This document shows positions 18,479 through 36,661 of a DNA stretch of 64,000 nt, one piece after another; within the stretch, counting starts at the first letter, position 1, and each line of letters starts with the position of its first letter. Made by a program: the position numbers and the translations under genes. The notes below the pieces were generated by a model. It ran no database searches, was not told the origin of the DNA, and saw only the letters and a program-made list of their open reading frames with translations. This DNA is from Ruania halotolerans (lineage in GTDB: Bacteria > Actinomycetota > Actinomycetes > Actinomycetales > Beutenbergiaceae): positions 558,001 through 622,000 of the forward strand of contig NZ_CP088017.1 in NCBI RefSeq assembly GCF_021049285.1, written 5' to 3'.

Positions 18479-18543
18479 CTAGCGGCCAATGTGGCGCGCT
18501 GTAGGACTAGCGTACGCCATGAATGGCACGCGACACTGGATGA

Positions 18544-19492: not shown

Positions 19493-19582
19493 TGACTCCC
19501 GGGCTGGTCGTGTTCTCCACCACTGCGCGATTGGCCCGGGCTCGAAATCGTTGGCAGTGGTGGAGTGCAGGAGTTGGGATCG

Positions 19583-19690: not shown

Positions 19691-19878
19691 GCGCGGGTGA
19701 TGTGGCAGAGGCTCGCCTGTCGGCTCTGGAGCGGCTGGTGACGATGGGCAGCCGATTGACGGAGTACGACCACGGTGCGCTCGCGGCCCTTCGTCGCACG
19801 GGTGATGCGACGATCACCGCTCGCGTGGACGGGGTGCTCCGTGCAGACGCGGCGCTAGATCAGGGGCGGAAGCGGTGA
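19687..19878 (+). CDS. 63-residue protein of the element, unknown
   Basis: GTG 19687 overlaps the stop of the basic peptide, and its own stop overlaps the next start (GTG 19875), so it sits in a tightly coupled run. The sequence is helical and mostly charged ('AEARLSALERLVTMGSRLTEYDHGALAALRRTGDATITARVDGVL'). I recognise no domain. Confidence 0.55.
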   Translation: MSAGDVAEARLSALERLVTMGSRLTEYDHGALAALRRTGDATITARVDGVLRADAALDQGRKR

Positions 19879-20510
19879 GCGTGGAGGCGTTGCGCGATCA
19901 GATCCTTGCCGGGTGCTCTGCGGAGTTGGCGGAGATCGAGCGTGAAGAGCGGCTCACACGGGAGGCGTTGGCACAGGTTCGTGAGGAGAACGCTGCAGCG
20001 ACGGCAGAGCACGCGGCTGCCGTGGAGGCAGCACGGGCTGAGGGCAGGGCCGGGCCGGTCGCTCCGGTGCTTCGGGACGGTGCGAGCCTGCAGAGCGCCC
20101 TGTACCGGCTCGTGGATCGGCGCGGTCGCGTTGCTGAGGCCCGGCGTTCAGCTTTGGCTGCTGCGTTGCCCGAGATCGAGCAGGAGTGGCAGGCGGTGCG
20201 GGGCTCGCTGGAGGACCGTGCCCGCCAGGTGCTGGACCTGTGCGAGCCGCTGCTACGTGAAGCGGTCGGATGGCAGGGGCTGCTGCGGGAGGCTCGCCAG
20301 GCGGAAGAGTCCAACCCAAATGCCGTGCGCCACGACGGCCCGGCTTCACGAATGCGCGCCCGCCTGGACGTCACGGCTGTTCTGGAGGACATGGCTGCCG
20401 GTGTGGACGTGCTCGCTCCGGCACCTCTACCGCCACGTGGCGCACCCTTCCCAGAGGGTCCGGACACCTTCGGATTGCAGCACCGGGCGCGAAAGCCGGG
20501 CAGGTGGTGA
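19875..20510 (+). CDS. 211-residue coiled-coil protein of the element, unknown
   Basis: GTG 19875 overlaps the preceding stop. Residues about 5-65 are a long charged helix rich in Glu, Arg and Ala, likely coiled coil ('ELAEIEREERLTREALAQVREENAAATAEHAAAVEAARAEG'). Residues 80-165 are helical ('EARRSALAAALPEIEQEWQAVRGSLEDRARQVLDLCEPLLREAV'). The tail is Pro-rich. I recognise no family. Its position just before the terminase-like gene suggests a phage-type scaffold-like or packaging-related role, but this is only a guess from context. Confidence 0.65.
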   Translation: MSVEALRDQILAGCSAELAEIEREERLTREALAQVREENAAATAEHAAAVEAARAEGRAGPVAPVLRDGASLQSALYRLVDRRGRVAEARRSALAAALPEIEQEWQAVRGSLEDRARQVLDLCEPLLREAVGWQGLLREARQAEESNPNAVRHDGPASRMRARLDVTAVLEDMAAGVDVLAPAPLPPRGAPFPEGPDTFGLQHRARKPGRW

Positions 20511-20516
20511 CCGGCC

Positions 20517-20927
20517 ATGGCCCGTGGTGACCGGCCTACCCGGATCCAGGAGCGGGCCATAGCCGCGCTGCTGGCATGCCGCACCCTGGAGGAGGCCGCG
20601 CACGAGTCGGGCGTCTCAGTACGGACGTTGAGGCGCTGGCTCGACTCGGAGCCGTTCGCGTCGCTATACCGAGACCAGGCCCGGCGAGCCGCACGAGAGG
20701 CAGTCAGCGCGTTGCTCTCCGGGCAGCGTGAGGCCGTGGAGGTGCTGCGGGGCGCGCTGCACACCGGCACACCGGCAACCCAGGTCCGGGCCGCACGCGC
20801 CCTGCTGGAGTTGGGCGTACGTGCCAGGGAAGACGACGTAGACGAACGGCTGGACGCGCTACAGGAGGAGGTCAACCGATGGCACATGACGACCGCGCGC
20901 GGCGCGATCTACGGCTCGATCAGTTGA
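20517..20927 (+). CDS. Terminase-small-subunit-like HTH protein
   Basis: 136 residues. Residues about 8-45 are a homeodomain-like HTH ('RIQERAIAALLACRTLEEAAHESGVSVRTLRRWLDSEPFASLYRDQARR'). A helical oligomerisation-like part follows ('AVEVLRGALHTGTPATQVRAARALLELGVRAREDDVDERLDALQEE'). This plan is that of phage terminase small subunits and phBC6A51-type homeodomain proteins, which choose the DNA to be packaged. No large subunit follows. In PICIs such a lone TerS redirects helper packaging to the satellite genome. A general HTH regulator is the main alternative. Confidence 0.6.
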   Translation: MARGDRPTRIQERAIAALLACRTLEEAAHESGVSVRTLRRWLDSEPFASLYRDQARRAAREAVSALLSGQREAVEVLRGALHTGTPATQVRAARALLELGVRAREDDVDERLDALQEEVNRWHMTTARGAIYGSIS

Positions 20928-21178
20928 GCCGACAGATCCAAGAGCAGCGTGACATGCACACCGGCTCACGGGTGGCTGACCTGCCCAACGGTGCCGAGAT
21001 CGTCCAGCATCTGCCCGAGTTGCTCTCAGACGATCCCCGGGTGGCCGAACTAGCCGCGCTCCGGGTCCACGCCCTGATGCCCCTGCCCGGATCGCCCGAG
21101 CACCCATCCAGCGCACTGCTAGACCACATTGAGCACCGCGAGGCGGCGTTGAGATCCGTGACCAAACGTGGCGACTGA
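20879..21178 (+). CDS. 99-residue protein overlapping the TerS-like gene, unknown
   Basis: ATG 20879 lies 49 bases inside the end of the TerS-like gene in another frame, with GGAGG just upstream (about 20866-20870). The sequence begins MAHDDRARRDLRLDQLSRQIQEQRD, helical and charged, and continues with 'IVQHLPELLSDDPRVAELAALRVHALMPLPG'. No family is recognised. The good ribosome site and coding-like composition make it more likely real than its partner's tail frame alone. Confidence 0.6.
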   Translation: MAHDDRARRDLRLDQLSRQIQEQRDMHTGSRVADLPNGAEIVQHLPELLSDDPRVAELAALRVHALMPLPGSPEHPSSALLDHIEHREAALRSVTKRGD

Positions 21179-21192
21179 GGCAGACTCGCCTC

Positions 21193-21867
21193 GTGGAAAC
21201 GTATCTGTCGGAGATTGGCCCGGGGACGTGGCCTGAATGGGTTGCGGCAATCGGGACCAGCGCGGCTTTCATCATCGCGGCGCTCGCGTATCGCCGCGAT
21301 GCAGCCTTCCGGCGTGGACGCCAAGCCTCACTCGTGTACTGCAAAGTCGTAGACATCGACTGGTACCCAGCGGGCGTGGTGGTACCGATACTCGCCAACG
21401 GTGCCACTGTGGGTTTCGGCGATGCGTCCACCGGCATAACTCGGATCGACGCCGCGACCTCTGGCTACGTCGTCCATGCGCCGATGGGACGCGCGACGGT
21501 GGAGGTTCACAACGGAAGCGATCAACTCATTAGCCCTGCCTACGTCTACGGGTTCAACCCGGGCAACGATGAGCGTTGGCCCTTTACCGTCGGCACTGGG
21601 CACGTCGATCCTCACGGTGTCGGTATCGTGGAGTTGACTTGCTCGAATCCGCGACATCCAGGACAGCCCTCGTTCGCTGCTGCGGTGGTCTTTCGCGATG
21701 CGAACGGCAAATGGTGGGCAAGGCGTAGCACGGGTGCTGTGGAGCCTGCCCATGACGATCCGGTCAATCGACCCTCCCGGCTTGACCGTTCGAGCGAGTC
21801 CGTGCCCTTGGGGGTGCGGTGGCGGCGTTTCTGGCGCCGTGTTAGGCGTCGGCGCCCGATCCCATGA
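21193..21867 (+). CDS. Membrane-anchored 224-residue cargo protein, unknown
   Basis: GTG 21193 starts a protein with one N-terminal membrane helix (about 11-32, 'GTWPEWVAAIGTSAAFIIAALAY') and then a beta-rich domain ('ASLVYCKVVDIDWYPAGVVVPILANGATVGFG...ATVEVHNGSDQLISPAYVYGF'). The tail is strongly basic ('RWRRFWRRVRRRRP'). Its codon and base use is less GC-biased than the host genes. It is the last gene before attR, where satellites and prophages often carry cargo such as immunity genes. I cannot assign a function. Confidence 0.7.
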   Translation: METYLSEIGPGTWPEWVAAIGTSAAFIIAALAYRRDAAFRRGRQASLVYCKVVDIDWYPAGVVVPILANGATVGFGDASTGITRIDAATSGYVVHAPMGRATVEVHNGSDQLISPAYVYGFNPGNDERWPFTVGTGHVDPHGVGIVELTCSNPRHPGQPSFAAAVVFRDANGKWWARRSTGAVEPAHDDPVNRPSRLDRSSESVPLGVRWRRFWRRVRRRRPIP

Positions 21868-21884
21868 GGTATGCCTGCGGGATG

Positions 21885-21902
21885 TCTCACGGATCTCTCA
21901 CG
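21885..21902. repeat. Candidate integrase arm-type site, right copy
   Basis: An 18-base perfect copy of the motif at 16739-16756, in the same orientation, between the cargo gene and attR. Confidence 0.55.
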
Positions 21903-22010
21903 GACGGCCCGTAACACGACAGCACAGACTGGCATGGCGGCACGGTCAATTCGGGACGCTTCCGGACGAGACGACACGAGCGCGAACGGGGCAATATCAA
22001 CGCAAAGTGC

Positions 22011-22069
22011 CTACGGATCAGAAGGTTGGGGGTTCGAGTCCCTCCGGGCGCGCTCGTTGAGACAGCGAC
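22011..22069. repeat. attR: 59-bp direct repeat, tRNA-Arg 3' fragment
   Basis: This is identical to 16600-16658. It has the T arm and 3' acceptor strand but no 5' half, so it is not a tRNA gene. It marks the right end of the element. The original chromosomal sequence resumes at 22070. Confidence 0.93.
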
Positions 22070-23265: not shown

Positions 23266-25848
23266 ATGTCAAAGATGATGGCTCGCTGGCGCTTGTTGCC
23301 TGTGCTGCTCGTAGCCCTCCTGGCGGGCGCGGTGGTGCCGACCGCCGCCAGCGCCACCCCCGGAGAGGAACTATCCGACAGCTTCGAAACCTTGCACGAC
23401 CACTGGTTGCCTGTCTCCGGCAACTGGCGCACCGCAGACGGTGCGGTCGTATCGAACGCAGTGAACGACGAGCATGGCCACAAGCTGGCACTTTTCGGCC
23501 ACCGATTGGCTGGGGATGGCGGTGTCACAGCTACTTTCGAGTTGACGGGCCAGGCGGCCGCTTCAACATGGGGTGGAGTCAGCGTGCATCGAGCTGGCGT
23601 TCAGGACGGGTACACGACATCCGGATATACGGCGCTGGTTCGCCGCAACGGCGAGTTGGCAATTATCAAGGCCGACGGTGGTAACGGCGTCACATATCTG
23701 GCCCGGGCTAACACAGCTGCACGTCCTGGAGAGGGGCCGATCAGCCTGACCTTCGAGGTCACAGGCGAGGCACTGAGCGCTAGCGTCGCCGGTACCACGA
23801 TCACAGCCACGGACTCTGCCTTTCGCGACGGGGGAGTATCGATCTTTGCTCATCGGGACACCGCCGTATCAGTCGCGCAATTCGAGGCCCAGGGACTGGT
23901 CCAGGCTGATGACACGGTGCCGCTCCCGGAAGATTGCCTCCCGCCCACTGAGGACACCACGGAGACTGGTCGGGGGGACGTACTGATCTCTGATGACCGC
24001 CTCGACATGATGCGCCAGCGTCTTGCCCAGGAGACGGAACCCCAGACGACGGCTTTCGCACAACTGATGGACGACGTCGCTGCAGACGTGGAAAGAGAAC
24101 CGTTCGCGCCCTCGGTCTGGTTCGTTCCGTTCTTCTACAACGACCCTGATGCTCACCGTGAAGCGCGTGATGGGCTGCAAGCGGACGCAAATGCCGCCTA
24201 TCGCCTGGCCTTGGCCTACCGACTAACCGGTGATGCGAGCTATGGAGTGAGTGCCGCCGGCTTCGTCGAAGCGTGGACATATGAGGTGGAGTGCTTTCGT
24301 ACCTCGCAAGACTCCGCGCTGGCCTTCAGTTACCACTTCCCGGCGATGGTCTTCGCTGCTGATCTCCTGCGCGACACGCAGGTCTGGAGTGCCGAGGTTG
24401 AGGCGGATTTCGCCTCGATGCTGCGTCAGCAGGCGCTCGAGATCTCTTCGTCGATCTCCAGCCGTGGAAACAACTGGGGCAACTGGGGTGTCAGCCTGTC
24501 CACGGCTATCGCTGCCTACCTCGGCGATGACGACCTGATGGGTGAGCAGATCGAGCGCGCCCGAGAGCTTGTCGACCACCAGATCGACGCCGACGGCCAC
24601 TTGGCCGAGGAAGTGACTCGCAACAGCGGGGTCGGCGACTATGGAATCTGGTACTCGCATTTCTCTCTCCTGCCAGCTTTGCTCACTGCTGAAATTGCTG
24701 AGCTGCACGGCTTCGATCTGTTCTCCTACGAGAACTCCCACGGATTCACCCTCGGTGACGCTGTGGAAGTCCTAGCGGGATGGGTCGAGACCCCTGAGTC
24801 GTTTCCATACTTCGACGGGCCCGTTGAAGACCTGGCAAACGTGCGTACGATCGACTACCTGAGTGAAGATGGCGTGATGGCGCACAGCATGAGCTACTTT
24901 GAGATTGCAGGAAGTCGCTACGATCTTCCTGCCGTGAATCGCCTTCTCGCCGTAGAACGGCCTATGACCACCATCCACGCGGCTCCGCACCTTACTTTGA
25001 CTCATGGTGATCTGAGCGACGAGCCGCCAGTGTTCCACCCACAGGTGCTGGTTTCTCCTGCGGAGGTCACCGAGTCCGCTATAGAGAGCGGTGAGGTGAC
25101 GGTGACGGCCTCTGGTTTCGCTCCTGATTCGGAGGTCGCGCTGTTCATCGGTGGAATCGAAACCGATTCCGCTCGTGCTGATAGCGGTGGTGCGGTGGTG
25201 TTCGTGCTCTCTGAAGCCGTAGCCGTGGGCGTGCACGTGGTGACTGTTTCGGCTGCGGAAGGTAGCGCCGAAGCTCAGTTGGTCGTTGTACCTGGCCTGG
25301 ATCCTGATTCTCAGATTCCAGACGACGTGCCTAGCGAGGATGACCTCACGCCCGGAACTGAGGGTGGCATCGCCGCCCCCGCAACGGCGAGCGAGCGAGC
25401 AGTGATCCTCGTGTCTATGAGTTCTGACTTCGCCGGAGAACGTGTCGGGCTCTGGATCTTCAGCCAGCCGACCTACATGGGCACGTACACAGTTGGTACG
25501 AACGGCACAGTCTCCGTCGCCCTACCTGCAGGCATGGTTGGTGAGCGCAGGATCGCTGCCTATAGCGCAGACCAGAGTCTGATCGGATGGGATCAGATCA
25601 ACGTTCGAGCCGCTGGTGGCACCGATGGAGACCCGGGCGATGGCGGTTCGGACATCGACGCCGACGACTCGAGCACGGATGGACTCGGCGTCGATGGCAG
25701 CACCCCCGAGGTTGATGGGGTCGACGACCGCGGGGCCCTTGCGGAGACGGGATTCGCCTGGATCGGTGCTGCGGTCGCGGCTATCGCGGCCATGCTAGTT
25801 GGCGCGTCTCTGCTGCGGTCCCGGCGGCGGGCCGATAACGCCTACTGA
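23266..25848 (+). CDS. Wall-anchored (LAETG) alginate-lyase-like polysaccharide lyase
   Basis: 860 residues; ATG 23266 follows GAGGAAA. A signal peptide (1-32, ASA cleavage) leads to a LamG/concanavalin-like beta domain at about 35-205. Residues about 225-560 resemble the alpha/alpha toroid of alginate lyases (PF05426), with the 'SSRGNNWGNWGVSLSTAIAAYLG' stretch near 398-420 and 'SGVGDYGIWYSHFSLLPALL'. Two Ig-like beta regions follow (600-670, 700-790). LAETG at 825, a helix and RSRRR form a sorting signal; the LAxTG form is that of class E sortases in actinobacteria. It likely cuts a uronic-acid polymer at the surface for the importer encoded next. The exact polymer is unknown. Confidence 0.78.
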   Translation: MSKMMARWRLLPVLLVALLAGAVVPTAASATPGEELSDSFETLHDHWLPVSGNWRTADGAVVSNAVNDEHGHKLALFGHRLAGDGGVTATFELTGQAAASTWGGVSVHRAGVQDGYTTSGYTALVRRNGELAIIKADGGNGVTYLARANTAARPGEGPISLTFEVTGEALSASVAGTTITATDSAFRDGGVSIFAHRDTAVSVAQFEAQGLVQADDTVPLPEDCLPPTEDTTETGRGDVLISDDRLDMMRQRLAQETEPQTTAFAQLMDDVAADVEREPFAPSVWFVPFFYNDPDAHREARDGLQADANAAYRLALAYRLTGDASYGVSAAGFVEAWTYEVECFRTSQDSALAFSYHFPAMVFAADLLRDTQVWSAEVEADFASMLRQQALEISSSISSRGNNWGNWGVSLSTAIAAYLGDDDLMGEQIERARELVDHQIDADGHLAEEVTRNSGVGDYGIWYSHFSLLPALLTAEIAELHGFDLFSYENSHGFTLGDAVEVLAGWVETPESFPYFDGPVEDLANVRTIDYLSEDGVMAHSMSYFEIAGSRYDLPAVNRLLAVERPMTTIHAAPHLTLTHGDLSDEPPVFHPQVLVSPAEVTESAIESGEVTVTASGFAPDSEVALFIGGIETDSARADSGGAVVFVLSEAVAVGVHVVTVSAAEGSAEAQLVVVPGLDPDSQIPDDVPSEDDLTPGTEGGIAAPATASERAVILVSMSSDFAGERVGLWIFSQPTYMGTYTVGTNGTVSVALPAGMVGERRIAAYSADQSLIGWDQINVRAAGGTDGDPGDGGSDIDADDSSTDGLGVDGSTPEVDGVDDRGALAETGFAWIGAAVAAIAAMLVGASLLRSRRRADNAY

Positions 25849-26209
25849 TTCTTCGAGTGCCGGAGCTGCCCCGTGGACTTCCATGTGCGCGAGCCGGCTC
25901 CGGCGCTCAACCAGGCGGGTGTTGGCGCACCGCACTCTTGTTGTTCTGGCTCACGACGTTGGTGACGCCTGGCGGTCGGTGTGCGCGGGACGGTGGCGAG
26001 GAATCCGTGATGCGCGACGAGCTCCTCGCTGGCATCGGCCACCGAGCTGAGGTGCGCTCGGGGTGGGTGTGACGCCCCCGTCGTGGCTCATTCGCTTGAA
26101 CAGCTTTCTCGAAATTGTTGCTTGTGAGACGCCAAAGCGATAATGTCTGTCGTATTGGTGTCGGATCGAAGGAGATCGCAGTGGAGTGGGCAGCCTCGAG
26201 GCACGGATC
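25849..26209. other. Intergenic region with promoter of the sugar ABC operon
   Basis: This 361-base gap has no convincing gene up to about 26100. It then contains a small inverted repeat TTTCTCGAAA (26105-26114) directly before a good promoter at 26118-26146, and AAGGAG at 26169-26174. A short frame from GTG 26181 (VEWAASRHGS) ends in a TGA that overlaps ATG 26210 as ATGA. Confidence 0.5.
26118..26146 (+). promoter_or_regulatory. Promoter of the lyase-linked sugar ABC operon
   Basis: The -35 is TTGCTT (26118-26123), then a 17-base spacer, then -10 TAATGT (26141-26146). The inverted repeat TTTC-TC-GAAA lies 3 bases upstream of the -35 and is a possible operator for the RpiR regulator at 29548. 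Confidence 0.55.
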
Positions 26210-27157
26210 ATGACCACGACGAAGAATGCGCGACCGCAATGGGACCTATCCGGATCGACTTTCCGCGACTCCCAGCGGTCAGCTCGACGTATCAGCGATC
26301 TGCGCTTCGCGTGGCTGTTGATCCTGCCTGGTGTGGCAATGCTGCTTGCAGTGGTTCTGTACCCACTCGTGCGTTCGCTGAGTTCGGCCTTCTTCAGCGA
26401 GAGTCTGCTCTACCCAGGCAGAGAGTTCGTCGGTCTGGCCAATATCCAGGCAGCGCTCGGAGATGACTTCGTCCGGTTGTTGTGGCAGACCGGGATCTTC
26501 ACTGTCGGCGCGACTGTTCTACCCTTCATCGTCGGGCTCGGTGTCGCGCTCGCGCTGAATGCACGCCTGCCCGGACGCAGCATCCTGCGCGGTGCCTTCC
26601 TGTTCCCCTGGCTCCTGCCCGCCGTCGTGGTCTCCTTCCTGTGGATGTGGATCTTCGATGCCAGTTATGGGGCTCTTAACGGTCTGTTGGAGCAGTTGTC
26701 CTTGATTGACGGACCGCGTGCCTGGCTGTTCGACACCACCACCGCTCGGGGTGCTCTAATCGTGGCCAAGTCCTGGAACGCGTTCCCGTGGATCATGGTC
26801 ATGCTCCTTGCCGCCCTGCAGACCGTTCCGGAGGACCTGCACGAAGCGGCCTCGCTCGATGGTGCCGGCAAGATCCGACGGTTCTGGACGGTGACCTGGC
26901 CGCACATCAGCGGCGTTGCCGGAATCGTCGTCCTCCTCGAGTTCATCTGGAACTTCCAGCACTTCGACCTGATCTTCGTCATGACCGGCGGTGGGCCAGC
27001 ACAGACCACCCAGACCCTAGCCACTGCCCTCTACGACTCAGCGTTCCGTTCCTACGACCTCGGGCAGGCGGGCGCTATTGGGATTCTGTGGATGATCGTC
27101 CTGCTCGTCCTCGTGGTCTTCTACGTCCGGTTTTCCGAGCGCAAAGAGGCGAACTGA
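26210..27157 (+). CDS. Carbohydrate ABC transporter permease (MalF/UgpA type)
   Basis: 315 residues with six membrane helices and the inner-membrane coupling loop 'EDLHEAASLDGAGKIRRFWTVTWPHISG' (EAA motif). The first helix starts near 35 ('FAWLLILPGVAMLLAVVLYPLV'). ATG 26210 has GAGG 8 bases upstream; GTG 26186 is an in-frame alternative. The stop overlaps the next start as TGATG. With its partner permease and lipoprotein it imports oligosaccharides, probably products of the anchored lyase encoded upstream. Confidence 0.93.
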   Translation: MTTTKNARPQWDLSGSTFRDSQRSARRISDLRFAWLLILPGVAMLLAVVLYPLVRSLSSAFFSESLLYPGREFVGLANIQAALGDDFVRLLWQTGIFTVGATVLPFIVGLGVALALNARLPGRSILRGAFLFPWLLPAVVVSFLWMWIFDASYGALNGLLEQLSLIDGPRAWLFDTTTARGALIVAKSWNAFPWIMVMLLAALQTVPEDLHEAASLDGAGKIRRFWTVTWPHISGVAGIVVLLEFIWNFQHFDLIFVMTGGGPAQTTQTLATALYDSAFRSYDLGQAGAIGILWMIVLLVLVVFYVRFSERKEAN

Positions 27158-28044
27158 TGGTTGTGACCACCGAAACGCGTTCGGCACCTCGCCAGCGGGC
27201 CGTGGCGCGCACGCACAGAAGCAGGCGCACCTTCCCGTTGGGGCCGTGGGCCGCCGTCGTGGGATTCGGGCTGTTCGCCTTCGCTCCCGTGTACTGGCTG
27301 CTGATCACCTCGATCACCCCGGACAGCCTGGTGTACCGCTATCCGGTGACCTTCTTCCCGGAGTCGGTCACCTTCGACAACTATCGCAGCGTCTTCACCG
27401 ATCCGGAGATCTTCGGTTGGCTGGCGAACTCGGTGATCGTCTCGGTGATCACTGCCGTGCTCAGTGTCGTGACGTCGATGTACATGGGCTACTCCATCTC
27501 GAAGTTCCGCTACCGCGGGCGGCGCACCCTCCTGTACTTCGTCCTGTCTAGCCAGATGCTGCCCTCGGCACTGCTGCTGGTGACGCTCTACGGGATCTTC
27601 GCGACGTTCGGGCTTCTCAACACGTACTTCGTGCTGATCATCTCGTTCACGACCTTCACGCTGCCGCTGTGCGTGTGGATGCTCAAAGGATTCTTCGACA
27701 ACCTCCCCGACGACATCATCGAGGCGTCGAAGATCGACGGAGCCTCCAACTGGCGCACGCTGCACGCGATCGTGCTTCCCCTGGCCGCGCCCGGCCTAGT
27801 CGCATCCGGGCTGTTCGCCTTCATGCGCGGTTGGAACGACTTCATCTTCGCATTGACGCTGACCGGTCCGGAGCGCCAGACGCTTCCACCCGCCCTGGTC
27901 AACCGCTACATCGGAGAAGCTGCGACCGACTGGCCTGAGCTTATGGCCGCCTCTGTCCTCGTTGCGCTCCCCGTGGCGGTGGCGTTCGTTGCGCTCCAAC
28001 GCCACCTGGTTGGCGGCATCACTGCTGGCGCCGTCAAGGGCTAA
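27157..28044 (+). CDS. Carbohydrate ABC transporter permease (MalG/UgpE type)
   Basis: 295 residues, six membrane helices, coupling loop 'DDIIEASKIDGASNWRTLHAIVLPLAAPG'. It ends 'HLVGGITAGAVKG', the usual C-terminus of MalG-type permeases. ATG 27157 overlaps the upstream stop and has AAAGAGG before it. No ATPase gene is in the cluster, so a shared MsiK-like ATPase encoded elsewhere probably powers it, as is common in actinobacteria. Confidence 0.93.
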   Translation: MVVTTETRSAPRQRAVARTHRSRRTFPLGPWAAVVGFGLFAFAPVYWLLITSITPDSLVYRYPVTFFPESVTFDNYRSVFTDPEIFGWLANSVIVSVITAVLSVVTSMYMGYSISKFRYRGRRTLLYFVLSSQMLPSALLLVTLYGIFATFGLLNTYFVLIISFTTFTLPLCVWMLKGFFDNLPDDIIEASKIDGASNWRTLHAIVLPLAAPGLVASGLFAFMRGWNDFIFALTLTGPERQTLPPALVNRYIGEAATDWPELMAASVLVALPVAVAFVALQRHLVGGITAGAVKG

Positions 28045-28100
28045 CCACTTCCACCATCAACGCCGATGAGTCCTCACGCATGTCACGAAGGAGAACTGCA

Positions 28101-29423
28101 ATGAACCGTACGACCAGCACGAACCACAACCGCCGCGGAGTGACCGACCTGAGCCGCCGGAACCTGCTCAGCCTCGGGGGTGCCCTCGGCCTGGGTGGGC
28201 TCGGCCTGGCAGCCTGCTCCGATTCAGGGTCGGGCACGGCCAACGCGCCCTCTGGTGAGGCCGGCCAGGGCTTCACCTTCACCTCGTTCGCATTGTCCGA
28301 GGACCCGCCGAAGGAATGGCTGGAGCAGACCGTCTCCGACTACGCCTCCGGCGAAGGCATCAGTATTAGCGAGTCGAGCTATGCCTACAACGAGGCTCTG
28401 AACCAGATGGTCCTGCAGAGCCGGGGCGGCGAGCTCTCCGGCGTGGCTCACCTGGACATCGCCTGGCTGGCACCCATGGTGGCCACCGGCACGCTGGCCG
28501 ACCTGTCCGAGTACACCAGCGATGCCGGGTACACCGAAGCGGCGTTGGGGACCGGCCAGTTCGACGGTGTGCAATACGGGATCCCGTGGACCACGGCAGC
28601 GATCGGACTGATCGGCAACGCCGAACTCCTGGAGCAGGCCGGCATCGACTTCGTACCGAGCACCGTGACCGAGTTCGAGGACGTGCTGCGGGAGGTGAAA
28701 AGCCTGGGCAGCGATGTCGTCCCGTACGCGGCCTCGACCGAAGTGGCGCAGCTCAAGGACTTCATCGTCTGGATGCAGACCTTCGGATCGGCCGTGGTCG
28801 AGGACGGGCGCTGCACGGTGGGCGACGAGGCCTCCATCGAGGCAATGACCTGGTACAAGAAGCTCTACACCGACGGCCTCATCGCGCCCGACATCGAGCG
28901 CAGTGCCGCCCGTAACCTGTTCAGCCAGGGCCGGACCGCCTACTACGACGACGCGCCAATCGGCTCGGCGATCGTGGTGACCAACTCGCCCGACGCCGAG
29001 ATCCGCTCGAAGATGATCCCGTTGGCGCGCCCGGTGCGCAACGCCGGCGACGTCCCGCAAGCATTGGCATGGGGACACATCCTCGTCGTGACCGACGGCG
29101 AGGAGTCCATCTCAGGGACCGAGTTCGCGCGGTGGCTGACATCGGACCTGGACACGGTCCTCGGCTACTTCGATGCCTCGAGCAACCCGCCCACCACGTC
29201 CGAGGGGCTCGAGAGCCCGGAAGTGCAGGAGGATGAGTTCCTCACGGCCTTCACCGACAACATCACAGCCACCGCCACCCCCAGCCCCTTCTGGGAGTTC
29301 ACCGAGTATGCGCAGATGGAGACCGCGGTAGCCGACAGTGTCCAGGCCGTTCTGCTCGGCAACCAGACACCCGAGGAAGGGATGCGGGCGGCTGGCGAAG
29401 CGGTGAACGGTTTGATCTCCTAA
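28101..29423 (+). CDS. Sugar ABC transporter substrate-binding lipoprotein (Tat type)
   Basis: 440 residues from ATG 28101 (AAGGAG 7 bases upstream). The N-terminus has a twin-arginine motif 'LSRRNLLSLGG' and a lipobox 'LAAC' (Cys about 37), so it is a Tat-exported lipoprotein. The mature part is a family 1 extracellular solute-binding protein ('GVQYGIPWTTAAIGLIGNAELLEQAGID', 'EFARWLTSDLDTVLGYFDASSNPPTTSEG'). It would catch the glycans released by the anchored lyase. Confidence 0.92.
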   Translation: MNRTTSTNHNRRGVTDLSRRNLLSLGGALGLGGLGLAACSDSGSGTANAPSGEAGQGFTFTSFALSEDPPKEWLEQTVSDYASGEGISISESSYAYNEALNQMVLQSRGGELSGVAHLDIAWLAPMVATGTLADLSEYTSDAGYTEAALGTGQFDGVQYGIPWTTAAIGLIGNAELLEQAGIDFVPSTVTEFEDVLREVKSLGSDVVPYAASTEVAQLKDFIVWMQTFGSAVVEDGRCTVGDEASIEAMTWYKKLYTDGLIAPDIERSAARNLFSQGRTAYYDDAPIGSAIVVTNSPDAEIRSKMIPLARPVRNAGDVPQALAWGHILVVTDGEESISGTEFARWLTSDLDTVLGYFDASSNPPTTSEGLESPEVQEDEFLTAFTDNITATATPSPFWEFTEYAQMETAVADSVQAVLLGNQTPEEGMRAAGEAVNGLIS

Positions 29424-29434
29424 TGGCTAACAGG

Positions 29435-29458
29435 CTCATCCGCCGTGGAGCGGGTGAG
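29435..29458 (+). terminator. Intercistronic hairpin after the binding-protein gene
   Basis: Arms CTCATCCGC (29435-29443) and GCGGGTGAG (29450-29458) pair over 9 bp with one G-T pair. It lies between the binding protein and the RpiR gene and may give partial termination. Confidence 0.4.
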
Positions 29459-29547
29459 CGGAGCGTTGAGCGGCAGCCACGGGTGCTGCTGCACACACAA
29501 CAGGCTCCGGCGATCTCCGGTTCGTCGAGGCGAGAAGGAGTAGGCAA

Positions 29548-30480
29548 GTGAGAGACTCGGAGGCTCGCGATAGTGGCCCGCAGAGAGATGGCGCGGATCA
29601 CGGTGCGGACGTCGACTACGGACCCAGCCCGCTACAAGCGTTGCGCGAAGCGTTGCCGCGACTGAAGCGGACGATGGCCCGCAGCGCGCAGTACATCGTG
29701 GACCATCCGGGTGAGGTCGGCGAGTCGTCTATCACCGGTCTCGCACGGTCGGCTGATGTCTCGCCCGCGAGCTTGAGCCGCTTGGCGGCCTATCTCGGCT
29801 TCGTCGGCTTCCCCGCGATGCGCGCCGCGATCGCCACCGAGCACGGGCGCGAGATGGAGGCGGGCTGGCACCGCGACATCGGCGACGAGATCCTGCCCGA
29901 AGACGGTCCGAAGGCCGTCCTGGAAGTACTGGCCGCCAATCAGCAACGCGCGGCACGCACGGCCATGGGGGCCATCGACGTCGACCTGGTGGTCCAGGCA
30001 GCGGACTGGATCGCTTCCGCTCGACGCATCCACCTGCACGGCGAGTGGGCCGACTCGGTGGCCGTGTCCGAGCTGTACATGCGCCTGCTCCGGATTGGCC
30101 TGCCGGTCTGGTTCCACGACGGCGCCGTCACCTCGCAGGTACTGGCCAGCATGATGGGGCCTGGCGACGTGGCGCTCATTCTCTCGCGCAGCGGAAACGA
30201 TGAGGTCGGTCTCGAGTTCTGTGACCGTGCGCGAAAAAACTCCGCTCACACGGTGGCCATCACCGGTGATCCGGACTCGGTTCTCGCCGATCGCTCAGAG
30301 ATCAGTATCTTCACCGGGATCCGGGAGGGGCTGACGTGGACCGACTTCTTCGCCGGGCGCGCGAGCGACACCTTGACGACCTCGCTGCTGTGGGTGCTCG
30401 TCGCCCAGCGCGTGCCGGGTGGTCTCGGGTTGGCGGCGAGCCTGTTCGACAAGATTCCTACTGCTCATGGAGATCGATAA
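29548..30480 (+). CDS. MurR/RpiR-family transcriptional regulator of the lyase/ABC locus
   Basis: 310 residues from GTG 29548 (AAGGAG upstream). The HTH_6 domain is at about 38-100 ('GESSITGLARSADVSPASLSRLAAYLGFVGFPAMRAAIA'). A SIS domain is at about 145-280 ('ARRIHLHGEWADSVAVSELYMRLLRIGLPVWFHD', 'DVALILSRSGNDEVGLEFCDRARKNSAHTVAITGDPDS'). It has only 3 bases between its stop and the FAD oxidoreductase gene, so it is in the operon it probably controls. Confidence 0.9.
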   Translation: MRDSEARDSGPQRDGADHGADVDYGPSPLQALREALPRLKRTMARSAQYIVDHPGEVGESSITGLARSADVSPASLSRLAAYLGFVGFPAMRAAIATEHGREMEAGWHRDIGDEILPEDGPKAVLEVLAANQQRAARTAMGAIDVDLVVQAADWIASARRIHLHGEWADSVAVSELYMRLLRIGLPVWFHDGAVTSQVLASMMGPGDVALILSRSGNDEVGLEFCDRARKNSAHTVAITGDPDSVLADRSEISIFTGIREGLTWTDFFAGRASDTLTTSLLWVLVAQRVPGGLGLAASLFDKIPTAHGDR

Positions 30481-30483
30481 CAC

Positions 30484-32748
30484 GTGACGTCCTACGACGT
30501 TGACCTCATTCCGCTGGAAACGGTGCACAGCGACATCACCGTGGTCGGTGGCGGGCTGGCCGGGGTCTGTGCGGCGCTTGCCGCCGCACGGCAGGGGATG
30601 CGGGTATCCCTGGTCCAAAACCGACCCGTCCTCGGGGGAAATTCATCGAGCGAGGTTCGGGTCTGGGTGTGCGGCGCCACAGCGCACGGGGTCCAGCACT
30701 ATGCACGCGAGACCGGGATCATGGGTGAGTTGTTCGTCGAGAATCAGTTCACCAATCCGGAGGGCAACCCCTACTACTGGGATCTGGTGCTGCTCGAGGC
30801 AGTCCGCGCCGAGTCCGGAATCGAGCTGTTCCTCAACACCGACGTCCGGGACGTCGAGGCCGAGGGTCCGCTCGAGAATCGGCAGATCAGGTCGGTTTCC
30901 GGCTGGCAGATGGGTTCGGAGCGACGTCTGCAGTTCCGCTCGACGATGTACATCGACGCCAGCGGCGACGGACTCGTCGGCTTTCTCGCCGGTGCGCGGT
31001 ACAGGACTGGTCGCGAGTCCCGCGAGGAGTACCAGGAATCGTGGGCGCCGGTTTCCGCGGACGCCGAGACACTGGGGTCGACGATCCTCTTCTATGTCAA
31101 AGACGTCGGCTACCCGGTGAAGTATGTGCCACCGTCCTTCGCTCGGGACATCACCGAGACGTCGATTCCGACCCTGCGTGACATCCACAAGGGGGCGAAC
31201 GGCTGCGACTACTGGTGGATCGAGTGGGGTGGAGACCGCGACGTCGTGGCTCACAACGAGGAGATCCGGGATGAGTTGCAAGCGGCCATCTACGGGATCT
31301 GGGACTACCTCAAGAACTCTGGCAAGTTCGACGCCGACAACCTGACGTTGGAATGGATCGGCGCGGTGCCAGGAAAGCGGGAGTATCGACGATTCCTCGG
31401 CGATCACGTCCTCACCCAGCATGATGTGCTGGACCAGACGCCGTTCGAGGATCGGGTGGCCTTCGGGGGATGGTCGATCGACTTGCACCCGCCGGGCGGG
31501 ATGTATGCCACGGAGAAGGGATCGAGGCATTGGCACCCCGACGGTAACTATCACATCCCCTTGCGATCGTTGTACTCCCAGAACGTCTCCAACATGTGGA
31601 TGGCCGGCCGGAACATATCGGCCACTCACGTCGCATTCGGTAGTACCCGGGTGATGGCCACCTGCGGGGTGATCGGAGAGGCTGCGGGTCTCGGCGCGGC
31701 ATTGAGTGCACAGCAGGGATGCACTCCGCGCGAACTGGCGTCGGAACATCTGGACGAGGTACGCCGGGCGATCGTGCGCACCGACGCCTCGGTCCTCGGC
31801 GTCCGCCACGACGATCCCACGGACCATGCGCTAGCAGCCCGGATCACCGCGACCTCGCAGCTCACCGGCCTCGGTGCGAGCGCGTCGTCGGGCCGGTGGG
31901 AGCTCATCTCTTCACTAGGTGTGGTGGTACCGGTGGATCCGGCGCTTGAGGGTATTGAGCTGCTGATCGACGCCGAGCGAGACACCGAACTTACCGTCGA
32001 TGTGCACGAGGTGGGACGTCCTCAGAACTATGTCCCGCACGCACAGGTGGCCGGTGTTTGCGTGCAGGTCACCGCTGGAACAGCACAGTGGATCACCGTG
32101 CCGGTGCGTTGGCAGCCGAGCACACCGCAGAACGCCTTCCTCGTGCTGCACGCCAATTCGCACATAGCCGTGCACACGTCCCCGGGGCCGCTGCCAGGTG
32201 TGGTTGCGCTGACCTATCGCGAACTCTCCAACGAGGAGCCGTACACCGAGCAGTGGCGCGCGTGGAAGCAAGTTCTGCACCGCACGGCTCCGTGCCTGCG
32301 GCTCGCGACGGCCACTGGTGCCTTTGCCGCCGAGAAGGCCGTCGGAGGCTATTCGCGGCCGTGGGCGGGGCCTCAGATGTGGATCTCAGAGCCATTGACT
32401 GAGGACCCCGAGCCGCAACTGCATCTTGCCTGGGATCCTGTTGTCTCGATCGGAGAAGTCGCCGTGATTTTCGATGACGACCTGGACGAGGACCTCATCA
32501 ACCTCCATCATCATCGGACCCCGTTCGACGTGCTGCCGACGCTGGTCAGCGATTATCGGATCGAGGTGGTCGACGAGGCCGGCACTTCTACGGTGATCGC
32601 CGACGTCACCGCCAACCGGATGCGGCACCGGCGCCACCGACTGCCGCAGCCCGTCGCTGCGACGTCTCTACGACTGGTGGTGACCGGCACGAACGGGGTT
32701 CCGCAGGCGCGTGTGGTGTCGCTGCGGGCGTGGGCTGCCGAAGAGTAG
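30484..32748 (+). CDS. FAD-dependent oxidoreductase with C-terminal beta domain
   Basis: 754 residues from GTG 30484. The N-terminal FAD_oxidored domain (PF12831 type) shows 'ITVVGGGLAGVCAALAAARQGMRVSLVQNRPVLGGNSSSEVR' (about 18-58), 'DASGDGLVGFLAGA', and the closing FAD motif 'NMWMAGRNISATHVAFGSTRVMATCGVIGEAAG' near 370. Residues about 475-754 are beta-rich and contain two sandwich-like parts, an uncommon extension. Family members with sugar ABC systems are thought to oxidise sugars or modify unsaturated products, but the reaction here is unknown. It is co-transcribed with the RpiR regulator. Confidence 0.82.
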   Translation: MTSYDVDLIPLETVHSDITVVGGGLAGVCAALAAARQGMRVSLVQNRPVLGGNSSSEVRVWVCGATAHGVQHYARETGIMGELFVENQFTNPEGNPYYWDLVLLEAVRAESGIELFLNTDVRDVEAEGPLENRQIRSVSGWQMGSERRLQFRSTMYIDASGDGLVGFLAGARYRTGRESREEYQESWAPVSADAETLGSTILFYVKDVGYPVKYVPPSFARDITETSIPTLRDIHKGANGCDYWWIEWGGDRDVVAHNEEIRDELQAAIYGIWDYLKNSGKFDADNLTLEWIGAVPGKREYRRFLGDHVLTQHDVLDQTPFEDRVAFGGWSIDLHPPGGMYATEKGSRHWHPDGNYHIPLRSLYSQNVSNMWMAGRNISATHVAFGSTRVMATCGVIGEAAGLGAALSAQQGCTPRELASEHLDEVRRAIVRTDASVLGVRHDDPTDHALAARITATSQLTGLGASASSGRWELISSLGVVVPVDPALEGIELLIDAERDTELTVDVHEVGRPQNYVPHAQVAGVCVQVTAGTAQWITVPVRWQPSTPQNAFLVLHANSHIAVHTSPGPLPGVVALTYRELSNEEPYTEQWRAWKQVLHRTAPCLRLATATGAFAAEKAVGGYSRPWAGPQMWISEPLTEDPEPQLHLAWDPVVSIGEVAVIFDDDLDEDLINLHHHRTPFDVLPTLVSDYRIEVVDEAGTSTVIADVTANRMRHRRHRLPQPVAATSLRLVVTGTNGVPQARVVSLRAWAAEE

Positions 32749-33139: not shown

Positions 33140-34225
33140 TCAGTGGGCGCGACCGATCCCGGCGTCCGCCTTCTCCCCGGGGTGTCCGTGGCCGAGATCC
33201 TGGAGCAGGAGACCTAGCCGGCCGTGCGTGAGGCGGTCCACGTTTCCTGAGTAGATCTGGTCCCGGACGCCTTCATCGATCTCGAGGGAGTCGATCACGC
33301 GGATCATCTCGCGGATGTACATCGGCCCGCCCTCTGGGTCGAACGGGCAGTCGGAGGCGAATACCACGTGCTCGCTGCCGAAGAAGTCCAGTCCGCACCG
33401 GGTGCCGATCGCAGACCCGGATAGGGAGGTATCGGCATAGAAGGACCGGAAGTACTCGATCGGTTCCCGCGAGAGCCGGGCCAGTGCCGATCGCGCCTCT
33501 TCTCCATGGGTCCGGCTCCCGAACTGGTCCGCCCAGCCGAGACGGATGCGTCCTTCGAGGAACGGGATCATCGCCCCCATGTGATGGGTGATGATCGCTA
33601 GATCCGGGTAGCGCTCAAGCACGCCCGAGAAGACCAAGCGGGACATCGCCACACTGCTCTCATAGGGCCAGCCCAGCGCCCACCAGATCTCATACTGGGA
33701 CGTCTCCTCGGTCCGGTAATCCGCAGTGGTGGCCGACCGCGTCGGGTGCAACCAGATCGGCAGATCGCGCCGGGCCATCGCCGCGTAGATCGGCTCGAAC
33801 TGCGGATCGTCGATCGGCACCCCGTTGACGTTGGTGAACATCTGCACACCGACGGCGCCGAGCTCGTCGATTGCGTACTCGATCTCAGCCAACGATGCCG
33901 CCACGTTGTTCAGCGGCAGCGACGCGACGAATGCCGGGAAGCGGCGCGGATGCTGGGTGACCAGCTCAGCAAGGGTCTCGTTGGCGAGCCGAGCCAGCGC
34001 CCCGGAGGAGTCCGGTTCCGCCAGCAGCTCGATCGGCGGTGAGGACAGCGTCAAGATCTGGCTGAAGTCCGGCCCGAACTCTTCCATCATCGCCAGACGA
34101 GCATCGACGTCGTATAAGGCAGGAAGGGTGAGCCACCGCTTCAGTGCACGAGGATCGCGCACCATTCCTTGCATCACCTCGAAGTATCGAGGAGGCAGGA
34201 TGTGACTGAACGCATCGATCTTCAT
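33140..34225 (-). CDS. Amidohydrolase_2 family protein (ACMSD/resorcylate-decarboxylase-like)
   Basis: 361 residues, last gene of the LacI-controlled operon; ATG 34225 overlaps the permease stop as ATGA. The TIM-barrel fold of PF04909 is clear: 'MKIDAFSHILPPRYFE' at the start, 'VGVQMFTNVNGVPIDDPQFEPIYAAM', 'LPIWLHPTRS', 'LAIITHHMGAMIPFLEGRI', 'FFGSEHVVFASDCPFDPEGG'. In the usual HxH metal motif the first His is Phe here (DAFSH), while the second His, the later His residues and the final Asp are kept. Members are decarboxylases or hydrolases of aromatic acids. Together with a TauABC-like importer it suggests use of an imported aromatic or heterocyclic acid. Confidence 0.85.
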   Translation of the reverse strand: MKIDAFSHILPPRYFEVMQGMVRDPRALKRWLTLPALYDVDARLAMMEEFGPDFSQILTLSSPPIELLAEPDSSGALARLANETLAELVTQHPRRFPAFVASLPLNNVAASLAEIEYAIDELGAVGVQMFTNVNGVPIDDPQFEPIYAAMARRDLPIWLHPTRSATTADYRTEETSQYEIWWALGWPYESSVAMSRLVFSGVLERYPDLAIITHHMGAMIPFLEGRIRLGWADQFGSRTHGEEARSALARLSREPIEYFRSFYADTSLSGSAIGTRCGLDFFGSEHVVFASDCPFDPEGGPMYIREMIRVIDSLEIDEGVRDQIYSGNVDRLTHGRLGLLLQDLGHGHPGEKADAGIGRAH

Positions 34226-35040
34226 GACTTCTCCCTGCTCGTCTCCGGCACCCAGCTGGTGAGCTTGCGGTCGACGAGTTGAACCAGCCCGACCGCGCCG
34301 AGCGCGACCACGATGATGACCATCAGCACTGCCAGGACTGCTGCGCCGTCGAACGACTTCCCGGCCTGCGTGACCAGCCGGCCCAGACCGATCACAGCGA
34401 TGAACATCTCGCCGTTGATCATGCCGAGCACAGCGCGACCGGTGCCTAGGCGGATACCCGCCATCATCGTTGGAAGTGCAGCGGGAAGAACGATCCGCCA
34501 GAGGATCTGCCACTCGGACGCGCCGTAGGAACGCGCCATCTCCGTCAGTGACGTCGGAACGTTCTCCACGGCGGAGGCGGTGTTGATGATCATCACGAAG
34601 GCGGAGTACATGACTACGACGGCCACGATCGATCCTTGGCCCGCCCCGAAGATCGAGAAGAAGATCGGTGCGAACACTAGCGACGGCGCCGTCAGCAACG
34701 CATAGACGTACACACCGAGCGCCGCCTTCACTCGCCAGTAGCGGCCCATCGCCGTACCCACGACGATCCCGAGAGTAAGGGAGATACCGAAGCCGAGCAC
34801 GAGGTTGCTGAGGCTGATCGCGAGGTTGCCGAGGATGTCGCCCTGGATGACCATCTGGACGAGCGTCGCGACGACGTCGGTGAACGGAGGAAAGAACGGG
34901 ACGGCGAACACGCGGCCGAGAAGTTCCCAGACCAGCACGCCCACGGTGAGCGAGAGGGCGGCGGTGCCGGCGTTGCCGAGCCGGAACGTTGGCCAGGTAC
35001 GAGCGCTTGCGGCGCTGACGCGTTGGGCCACCGCGCTCAT
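34222..35040 (-). CDS. ABC transporter permease, SsuC/TauC family (second permease)
   Basis: 272 residues with six membrane helices and the coupling loop 'TEMARSYGASEWQILWRIVLPAALPTMMAGIRLGTGRAV'. ATG 35040 overlaps the ATPase stop as TGATG. It differs from the other permease of the operon, so the importer probably uses a heterodimeric channel. Confidence 0.92.
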   Translation of the reverse strand: MSAVAQRVSAASARTWPTFRLGNAGTAALSLTVGVLVWELLGRVFAVPFFPPFTDVVATLVQMVIQGDILGNLAISLSNLVLGFGISLTLGIVVGTAMGRYWRVKAALGVYVYALLTAPSLVFAPIFFSIFGAGQGSIVAVVVMYSAFVMIINTASAVENVPTSLTEMARSYGASEWQILWRIVLPAALPTMMAGIRLGTGRAVLGMINGEMFIAVIGLGRLVTQAGKSFDGAAVLAVLMVIIVVALGAVGLVQLVDRKLTSWVPETSREKS

Positions 35041-35834
35041 CAGGAGGCCTTCCCGTTCGCTCGATGCTCGGTGTGCATCGAGCGCAGCCGGTCCCAGAGG
35101 TGGGCAGTGATCTCGACGTACTCGCGAGAGCGTTCCAGACCGCCGACGTCGCTCGACCGCGGGCGCTCGAGCGGAACATCCACGATCTCTGCGATCTGCC
35201 CGGGCCGAGCGCTCATCAGCACCACTCGATCTCCGAGCAGGACGGCCTCTTCCATCGAGTGCGTGACGAAGACGACGGTGAGCCGGTTGCGCTCCCAGAT
35301 ATCAAGCAGCTCTTCCTGAAGGAGCCGCCGGGTCTGTTCGTCCACGGCGCCGAACGGCTCGTCCATGAGCAGGATCTGAGGATCGACAGCGAGCGCACGA
35401 GCAATGCCGACCCGCTGCTGCATTCCGCCGGAGAGTTCCCCGGGGCGTTTTGATTCGAACCCGGTCAGGCCGACCATCTCGATGAGCTCACGGGCGCGCT
35501 CTTCGCGCTTGCGGCGCTCAGCCCCACGCAGTCTCAGACCGAAGGCCACATTGTCGAGCACGGTGGCCCAAGGCAACAGGGCGAAGTTCTGGAAGACCAT
35601 GCTGCGGTCGGGCCCGGGCCCGGTCACCGGGGTGCCGTCGATGGTGATCGTGCCTTCGTCCCAAGACTGCAGGCCGGCCACCATTTTCAGCATGGTGGTC
35701 TTCCCGCACCCGCTGGGGCCGAGCACGGTCACGAACTCGTTGTCTCGGATAGTCAGGTCGACACCACCGAGAGCGTGCACGGAACTGCCGTCCTGGCCGA
35801 TGAAGGTTTTCGTGAGTTCACGGATCTCGATCAT
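35040..35834 (-). CDS. ABC transporter ATP-binding protein, SsuB/TauB family
   Basis: 264 residues from ATG 35834, overlapping the first permease stop as ATGA. Walker A is 'LGPSGCGKTTMLK', the Q-loop is 'MVFQNFALLPWATVLDNVAFGL', the signature is 'LSGGMQQRVGIARAL', Walker B is 'ILLMDEPFGAVDEQTR' and the H-loop is 'VVFVTHSMEEAVLLGDRVVLMSARPG'. This is the full pattern of nitrate/sulfonate/taurine-type importer ATPases. Confidence 0.95.
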   Translation of the reverse strand: MIEIRELTKTFIGQDGSSVHALGGVDLTIRDNEFVTVLGPSGCGKTTMLKMVAGLQSWDEGTITIDGTPVTGPGPDRSMVFQNFALLPWATVLDNVAFGLRLRGAERRKREERARELIEMVGLTGFESKRPGELSGGMQQRVGIARALAVDPQILLMDEPFGAVDEQTRRLLQEELLDIWERNRLTVVFVTHSMEEAVLLGDRVVLMSARPGQIAEIVDVPLERPRSSDVGGLERSREYVEITAHLWDRLRSMHTEHRANGKAS

Positions 35835-36661
35835 GGGCGTGCCTTTCCGGGTCCAGGTGCCCAGGGCGCGATCTTGCGTTCGAGCCATTGGGCGAGCGAG
35901 ATGAGAATGAGTGCTTCGGCGAGAATGGCGACGATCACCGAGTACAGTGCCGGCCCGTCGAAAGCGCCTCGATACTCGAGAATGAGTCCGCCGAGGGCGA
36001 GCGAGACCATCAGCAGTTCCACGATGACCATGCCGGTGACGGCGCGGCCCAGGCCGAGGCGGATCCCGGTCATGATGGACGGCAGCGCTGCGGGCAGCAG
36101 GACGGCCCGCCAGATCTGCGCTTCGTTCGCTCCGAAGGTGCGTGCCATCTGAATGAGGCTCGGATCGACCTGGCGAATACCTGCCCGGACATTCACGATG
36201 ATCATCACCACAGCGAAGAGCGTCACGAGGATCACTCGAGAAACCAGGCCGAAGCCCACGGACATGATCAGCAGGGGGATGATCGCGGCCATCGGGGTGA
36301 CGAGCAGGATGTTCAGATAGACATTGCTGAGGCGCTCCAAGGTGCGGAATCGTCCGAGCAGGATTCCGGCGGGGAGACCGATCGTCACGGCGGCTGCGAA
36401 CCCGAGGACCAATGCTTGGTTCGATACGGCGAACGCGCTCCAGAAGTCGGCAGTGCCGATCGTGGACCAGAACGCTCCCACGGTCTCGGTGAAGGTGGGC
36501 ACCAGCAGGCCGCCGAAGTGGGTGCCGTACACCTGCCAGCCGATCGCGAACACGGCGAAGGTGAGCACTTGGTAGGTGCGTACCGAGTCGAGCCGGTCCC
36601 GAGTAGTTCGTCGCCGTTGCGGGGCAGGCACCGTCCGGGACGACGTGTCGGTGGTAGCCAT
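35831..36661 (-). CDS. ABC transporter permease, SsuC/TauC family (first permease)
   Basis: 276 residues, six membrane helices, coupling loop 'IQMARTFGANEAQIWRAVLLPAALPSIMTGIRLGLGRAV'. ATG 36661 overlaps the binding-protein stop as TGATG. It ends in 'LERKIAPWAPG', like other family members. Confidence 0.92.
   Translation of the reverse strand: MATTDTSSRTVPAPQRRRTTRDRLDSVRTYQVLTFAVFAIGWQVYGTHFGGLLVPTFTETVGAFWSTIGTADFWSAFAVSNQALVLGFAAAVTIGLPAGILLGRFRTLERLSNVYLNILLVTPMAAIIPLLIMSVGFGLVSRVILVTLFAVVMIIVNVRAGIRQVDPSLIQMARTFGANEAQIWRAVLLPAALPSIMTGIRLGLGRAVTGMVIVELLMVSLALGGLILEYRGAFDGPALYSVIVAILAEALILISLAQWLERKIAPWAPGPGKARP

Follow-up and report, generated by a model that had tools for sequence, protein, structure and literature searches.

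The locus at positions 23,266 to 32,748 of the window, the 64,000-nucleotide stretch of Ruania halotolerans DNA analysed here, raises the question of how an imported oligosaccharide is processed when a polysaccharide lyase, a sugar importer and an FAD oxidoreductase are encoded together without a glycoside hydrolase. A textbook uronate utilisation locus combines a lyase with a GH88 or GH105 enzyme. The window locus shares with such loci a secreted lyase, an oligosaccharide importer and a regulator. However, it is devoid of GH88/GH105, and the FAD enzyme occupies the cytosolic position. We propose that it is a Gram-positive glycan-utilisation locus in which the flavoenzyme, the only cytosolic enzyme encoded, performs a flavin redox step on the imported oligosaccharide, a reading that we consider to have an even chance of being correct.

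The window genome is a single contig of 4,270,413 bases. A reading-frame check of the window bore out the gene content and positions of a preliminary description, with six ORFs, all on the + strand. The first (23266..25848) encodes a LAETG-anchored, secreted polysaccharide lyase-like protein of 860 residues that matches PF05426 (E 3.9e-33; 115.5 bits against a cut-off of 22.2). It is followed by an intergenic region (25849..26206), a MalF-type ABC permease (26207..27157; PF00528, 5.3e-20), a MalG-type ABC permease (27157..28044; PF00528, 3e-20) and a sugar-binding lipoprotein (SBP; 28080..29423; PF13416 (SBP_bac_8), 1.1e-23), whose Tat signal and lipobox can be read in the sequence as SRRNLL ... 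LAAC. An RpiR-family regulator (29548..30480), with its HTH_6 domain (PF01418, 2.8e-9) above the Pfam cut-off and its SIS domain (PF01380, 1.9e-5) slightly below, precedes by exactly 3 bases the gene of the 754-residue FAD oxidoreductase (30484..32748; PF12831, 2.2e-97). The importer had been described as a Tat-lipoprotein system without an ATPase and the locus as free of glycoside hydrolases; in agreement, a Pfam search of the six proteins gave no match to an ABC ATPase or to glycoside hydrolase families, GH88/GH105 included. Two MalK-type ATPase domains are encoded elsewhere in the genome.

The lyase consists of a CBM66-like domain (approximately residues 39–212; VIA Z 19.2 to CBM66), an alpha/alpha toroid catalytic domain (approximately residues 234–590, with Asn402-Asn403-Trp404, Arg452, Tyr463, His465 and His580) and a C-terminal region in which the LAETG motif at residue 825 is followed by a hydrophobic stretch and an Arg-rich tail. 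A secretion signal is also apparent in the sequence. With its LAxTG signal, and with two sortases above the cut-off in the genome, the protein qualifies by sequence as a sortase-anchored surface protein. Lyases of the window, of a second species of the window genus (G020) and of four Microbacterium strains end in LAETG, LAATG or LAASG plus a membrane segment. The Isoptericola lyase has two CBM5/12 stretches at its C-terminus, and a sorting signal of the LAxTG kind is absent from the C-termini of the L117 and Virgibacillus lyases.

The predicted structure of the lyase (residues 32–590, pLDDT 88) has the alpha/alpha toroid fold of PL5/PL38 alginate lyases, matching A1-III (4f10) with a VIA Z of 31.7 (328 residues, 3.0 Å) and BoPL38 (8bdq) with a VIA Z of 30.1. 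PF05426 and the toroid fold are thus common to the window lyase and to members of PL5 (A1-III, AlgL, Smlt1473) and PL38 (BoPL38), to which it is 17–18% identical in structural alignment, and compared to which it has an extra CBM66-like domain and a sortase signal. The Asn402-Asn403 pair, Arg452 and Tyr463 align with PL38 site residues and are invariant in all 28 aligned lyase rows. In contrast, both PL38 histidines, one after the Asn pair and one before the Tyr, are replaced by tryptophan. Trp404, at the first of these positions, is found in 28 of 28 rows, a count biased by the use of NNWG as one of the two patterns in the genome_contigs scan (L054 and L062 were found without it); Trp462, at the second, is not invariant. 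A catalytic-site His beside the neutralising Asn, as in PL5/PL38, was not found in the window lyase.

Alginate lyases of PL5, 15, 17, 38 and 39 share a conserved pocket His, according to one report, which also describes that replacing the His of GAGase III abolished alginate activity and only partly abolished glycosaminoglycan activity, and that introducing a His into other GAGases conferred no alginate activity (PMC12088678). In GAGase III the His precedes the Asn, and because of this different residue order its role can be carried over to the window lyase only tentatively. Another report describes an Akkermansia PL38 enzyme that acts on glycosaminoglycans (PMC11790493). The enzyme had been called alginate-lyase-like, which stands as to family and fold; the hint at alginate does not, since the PL38 His is a Trp here, making alginate an unlikely substrate as judged from the alignment and by analogy. 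A search of the window genome for PF08787 (Alginate_lyase2) gave no match, and the controls likewise gave none.

PF12831 spans residues 17–425 of the FAD protein (327.4 bits against a cut-off of 27; profile positions 1–411 of 416), a near full-length match to the FAD_oxidored family. Compared to that family, FAD proteins of the window type add a large β-rich C-terminus and frequently have a sugar permease pair nearby. The match to PF00890 is confined to residues 17–54 and so does not cover a full flavin domain. In the predicted model (pLDDT 82), the flavin domain best matches a geranylgeranyl reductase-like protein (Z 17.0), flavocytochrome c3 fumarate reductase (16.5) and urocanate reductase (16.4). 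The FAD protein thus has the flavin-domain fold in common with these reductases, but its sequence similarity in the PDB is restricted to the dinucleotide-binding motif (profile positions 10–51), and no heme or quinone partner gene was noticed near the FAD gene. Searches of libraries and of the open-access literature found no role for PF12831. Four loops of the model (residues 65–73, 237–243, 295–299 and 379–388) have a pLDDT below 50 and may include the active site.

The β-rich extension of the FAD protein, already pointed out in the preliminary description, comprises residues 444–754 of the predicted structure. It is predicted to hold a CBM32-like, F5/8C-type β-sandwich, which matches the CBM32-type chitosan-binding module 4zz5 with a Z of 18.6 (128 residues, 1.9 Å), and a second β-domain is probably inserted in the region; Pfam F5/8C models gave no match in the protein at E 0.001. 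All 32 aligned FAD sequences have the β-rich region, and shorter forms exist (L140 and L141). Residues invariant among the 32 include Trp244, Trp245, Arg302, Arg303, Asp333, His335, Arg361, Arg376 and His382. As no secretion signal is seen in the sequence, we take the FAD protein to be cytosolic.

The lyase, importer and FAD genes occur together in nine strains, namely the window strain and G020, which are two species of the window genus, Isoptericola, five Microbacterium strains and Virgibacillus senegalensis, the last from another phylum. Their association is not due to chance, as it recurs in other genera and in another phylum, and the view that the three belong together is upheld by the four places that the combination occupies on the FAD tree, in two phyla. 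The further suggestion in the preliminary description, that the FAD enzyme alters the unsaturated sugar made by the lyase, goes beyond what this association demonstrates. The arrangement, previously called uncommon, is so relative to the known systems compared, but it is recurrent across genera and phyla.

Of the 24 genomes in the window family, 15 encode a FAD homologue with an E-value of 1e-60 or lower and four give a lyase match at E 1e-20, full-length only in the window genome (G000) and G020. Among 396 genomes of the order, searched with few candidates scored per genome, five were found to encode the lyase domain and 32 the FAD protein. Both are present in G000, G020 and G049, always less than 5 kb apart; a distant lyase without the FAD protein at the threshold used is encoded in two further genomes, G002 (35% identity) and G304 (32%), and the G002 frame contains a stop. 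When genome_contigs was scanned with the lyase alignment, 26 loci were returned, seven of which hold importer and FAD genes beside the lyase (Isoptericola chiayiensis, the five Microbacterium strains and V. senegalensis). The V. senegalensis proteins are 41% (lyase), 46% (FAD protein, partial sequence) and 39 and 45% (permeases) identical to those of the window. In the Microbacterium locus L097 the run is permF-permG-SBP-FAD-lyase, with 28, 91 and 29 bases before the SBP, FAD and lyase genes, respectively; the start position of permG in this locus is tentative. Between the FAD and lyase genes of L117 lies one for a secreted protein of 1299 residues. With a profile search, a weaker FAD relative was detected in L112 (E 5e-27), and L114 gave a marginal match (2e-6). 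In the remaining 17 of the 26 loci, no FAD gene was found in the DNA available; these loci come from one Actinomycetota isolate and from MAGs belonging to several phyla, and several of the contigs are short.

The importer permease was searched for in the 396 genomes independently of the FAD protein and the lyase, again with few candidates scored per genome (2 or 5 in this and the FAD search), giving 13 matches in 12 genomes. All nine homologues with at least 61% identity lie within 5 kb of a FAD gene, and the lyase is present in just three of the nine genomes with these close importers. The four matches at 41–54% identity have no FAD gene in the 16–19 kb around them. These sister importers adjoin homologues of MR_MLE (4/4), SDR (4/4) and DapA-type (3/4) proteins, with Pfam confirmation of MR_MLE in L142 and L144 and of DHDPS in L144, and such neighbours fit acid sugars. 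In the sister species G015 and G017, the importer, SBP, RpiR and FAD proteins are retained at 86–97% identity without the lyase. Since the close importers are invariably beside a FAD gene, the lyase accompanies a third of them and its distribution requires four changes on the FAD tree, the importer and the flavoenzyme form the core of the system, with the lyase as an optional front end.

The FAD tree comprises 48 proteins; L049 (cut by a contig end), L055, L140, L141 and FAD matches that were not fetched are outside it. This lyase is found in 9 of the 48 loci and is absent from the fetched stretch in the other 39. A permease pair lies within 8 kb of the FAD gene in 41 of 46 loci (the FAD-tree loci minus the window and L137) and within 5 kb in 34; L043, L044, L045 and L094 have no permease and L085 has a single one. 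FAD homologues at E 1e-100 are present in 6 of 299 Bacillota genomes, and at seven Bacillota FAD loci examined besides that of Virgibacillus, a sugar permease pair is found in five and this lyase in none. The Bacillota loci L140 and L141, on short contigs, have shorter FAD frames and no permease pair. Other FAD loci carry different enzymes or none that could be named. Neighbour proteins at the loci compared include PL8 (L046), a pectate-lyase-like RHGA domain with a sulfatase (L042), BNR_4 (L089), GH2 (L093), GH42 (L045) and GH16 (L143). A phmmer search gave no PDB match for the L037 c7 protein, the 1330-residue protein of L044 or the 539-residue protein of L085. Compared for a shared substrate, the neighbours proved too diverse to point to a single polymer. 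Because only nine of the 48 FAD loci have this lyase, the substrate class of the flavoenzyme is probably wider than the product of this lyase.

In the proposed pathway, the wall-anchored lyase would act by β-elimination on a uronate-containing polymer that is probably not alginate, as suggested by its family, fold and conserved Asn, Arg and Tyr residues. The lipoprotein and the two permeases, by family, would import the resulting oligosaccharides, powered by an unlinked MalK-type ATPase. The cytosolic FAD protein may then hold the oligosaccharide through its CBM32-like domain and perform a redox step with its flavin, most likely the oxidation of a sugar hydroxyl, whereupon the oxidised sugar or its glycosidic bond would become cleavable with no need for the locus to encode a dedicated hydrolase. 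The RpiR protein could sense a sugar phosphate via its SIS domain and control the importer and FAD genes. We infer this chain from polymer through lyase and importer to flavoenzyme; its first links are likely, and the type of flavin reaction is guessed from the fold and the genomic context. The minimal conserved locus, in which a PF12831 member is paired with a lyase and an importer, provides a defined substrate supply, which makes the reaction directly testable. The idea that oxidation of a sugar enables non-hydrolytic cleavage is shared with the GMC glycoside 3-oxidases and glycoside β-eliminases (PMC10646112, PMC10628242); those 3-oxidases belong to the GMC superfamily, whereas the window enzyme belongs to PF12831.

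More broadly, the CBM32-tailed PF12831 protein might use redox chemistry to open or prime the glycosidic bonds in imported (unsaturated) uronic oligosaccharides, replacing GH88/GH105 and working with exchangeable importers and extracellular enzymes in Actinomycetota and Bacillota. We regard this proposal as doubtful; if it were true that the flavoenzyme replaces the unsaturated-uronyl hydrolase, the annotation of sugar-acid catabolism would have missed a step. PF07470 (GH88/GH105) was sought in 10 genomes, eight carriers of lyase and FAD genes and the sisters G015 and G017. It was matched in six of the eight carriers, five of them above the cut-off, and was not detected in the carriers G020 and G049 or in the two sisters. 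The window genome has one PF07470 gene, approximately 440 kb from the locus; three Microbacterium genomes have matches of 52–58 bits and a fourth two matches below the cut-off, and the Virgibacillus match is strong.

The enzymes of sugar-acid breakdown in these genomes bear on a different reading, in which the FAD protein acts on a mono- or disaccharide that has been released, oxidising C1 or another carbon to yield an acid or lactone as a substrate for an MR_MLE dehydratase and for KDG-type aldolases whose genes lie elsewhere. It would agree with L043, where an MR_MLE gene adjoins the RpiR-FAD pair, and with the lyase locus of Virgibacillus, whose further genes encode an MR_MLE protein and a DapA-type aldolase, each with a homologue adjoining the sister importers, as well as a DGOK kinase and a KDPG aldolase. 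However, the two Virgibacillus gene groups are interrupted by a regulator-like gene on the opposite strand, and an MR_MLE homologue at E 1e-60 is found in only 4 of 14 genomes, G000 not being one of them. All 10 carriers and sisters searched have KDPG aldolase (PF01081), which is compatible with sugar-acid breakdown, but it is unspecific because 8 of 14 control genomes also have it. We consider oxidation to an acid or lactone unlikely. That the MR_MLE/DapA pathway constantly accompanies the FAD gene was rejected on the same MR_MLE count.

The unity of the window locus is qualified by the distance of approximately 360 bp between lyase and importer, by the missing lyase in G015 and G017 and by an upstream block of the importer's own. 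This block, AAAGCGATAAT ... GGATCGAAGGAGATCGC, is conserved in an alignment of four genomes and is a candidate for the importer unit's own promoter and leader. A consensus scan found no sigma-70 consensus site in 25849..26206; one consensus promoter and three terminators were found, compared to 1.6 and 4.3 in shuffled sequence. No regulatory motif common to the upstream regions of lyase and importer was found by alignment.

This separate upstream region, the sister loci that persist without the lyase and its presence beside only a third of the close importers would be expected if the adjacent lyase and FAD genes did not serve one pathway, with the importer-RpiR-FAD unit taking up another glycan and the lyase being a passenger. 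The trees and the tight gene run in Microbacterium speak against it, and we think it distinctly unlikely. The nine lyase-linked rows of the FAD tree fall in four places, so that the lyase label needs 4 changes compared to a mean of 8.4 for shuffled labels, with none of 500 shuffles as low as 4, a result to which near-copies such as the Microbacterium rows contribute. In the permease tree (35 rows; the window and 34 of the 36 loci tried, L043 and L044 having given no match), all seven lyase-linked permeases fall in one 13-row clade with an SH-aLRT of 100, in what is a quick tree without bootstrap and with long-branch warnings that include L119 (Virgibacillus). The repeated pairing of lyase, importer and FAD protein thus argues for a shared pathway, and says nothing on the type of reaction.

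That the FAD protein is instead an enoate reductase, reducing the carboxylate-conjugated C4=C5 bond of the unsaturated uronate to give a 4-deoxyuronate in the manner of fumarate and urocanate reductases, is the least probable reading: the solved flavin folds among its best matches (Z 16.4–17.0) are indeed known or named as C=C reductases, and such an activity would explain the pairing with this lyase, with PL8 in L046 and with BNR_4 in L089, but the flavin fold is common to many flavoenzymes, so the Z values do not tell the reaction, no conserved electron-donor gene was seen in the gene runs listed, and hydroxyl oxidation is favoured because 39 of the 48 FAD loci are without this lyase.

The two trees also suggest how the window locus was assembled. 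The window FAD protein lies in a starred clade with those of its own family and f12, many of them RpiR-linked, and the importers at the nearest same-family FAD loci are 26–34% identical to that of the window. The Isoptericola and Microbacterium FAD proteins form another starred clade, apart from the window protein. As the lyase-linked permeases fall in a single clade, two FAD clades go with the same importer and lyase set. In the window genus, a resident RpiR-FAD pair appears, from these sequence relationships, to have been joined to an importer and lyase type found with the other FAD clade.

Ahead of the lyase gene, in the region 16569–22069, a 5.4-kb element carrying an integrase-like gene is bounded by direct repeats. 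The two repeats, each 62 bp long and 98% alike, flank the element at 16597–16658 and 22008–22069, with the first overlapping a tRNA-Arg, and the putative integrase gene, so named from its sequence alone, is located inside at 16776–17912. The locus (L032) of G020, a second genome of the genus with lyase, importer and FAD genes, contains a single site upstream of its lyase gene that matches both repeats of the window.

A protein of 465 residues (c7) is encoded between the importer and the RpiR-FAD gene pair in four of the loci fetched from other genomes (L035, L037, L038 and L040; for example, L037:10720–12117), and the c7 group comprises six members in the locus comparison. The member tested, that of L037, has no match in Pfam or PDB. 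Golvesin_C domains were found in large proteins adjoining FAD genes (L138, L045 and L093), and large proteins with this domain also adjoin the sister importers (L142–L144), which are homologues of the window importer.

The window contains a second glycan cluster (40082–52976), consisting of a TIM-barrel isomerase, a Gfo/Idh protein, an SDF transporter, a GDSL esterase, a DUF1961 protein and a PcRGLX-type rhamnogalacturonan lyase, together with predicted ABC importer genes (45231–48706). The genes at 33140–37734 form a cluster on the opposite strand, whose products include a binding protein of the NMT1 type, one permease and a member of the Amidohydro_2 family, as well as a probable ATPase and second permease, both assigned by sequence alone. 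The region 978–11260 encodes two surface-type proteins of very large size, which carry DUF5979 or F5/8C domains; the second has an LPXTG-anchor match slightly under the cut-off. A GDPD gene adjoins ABC-importer-like genes at 58470–62737; a GDPD-like gene and an importer are also located near the FAD gene in L039 and L041.
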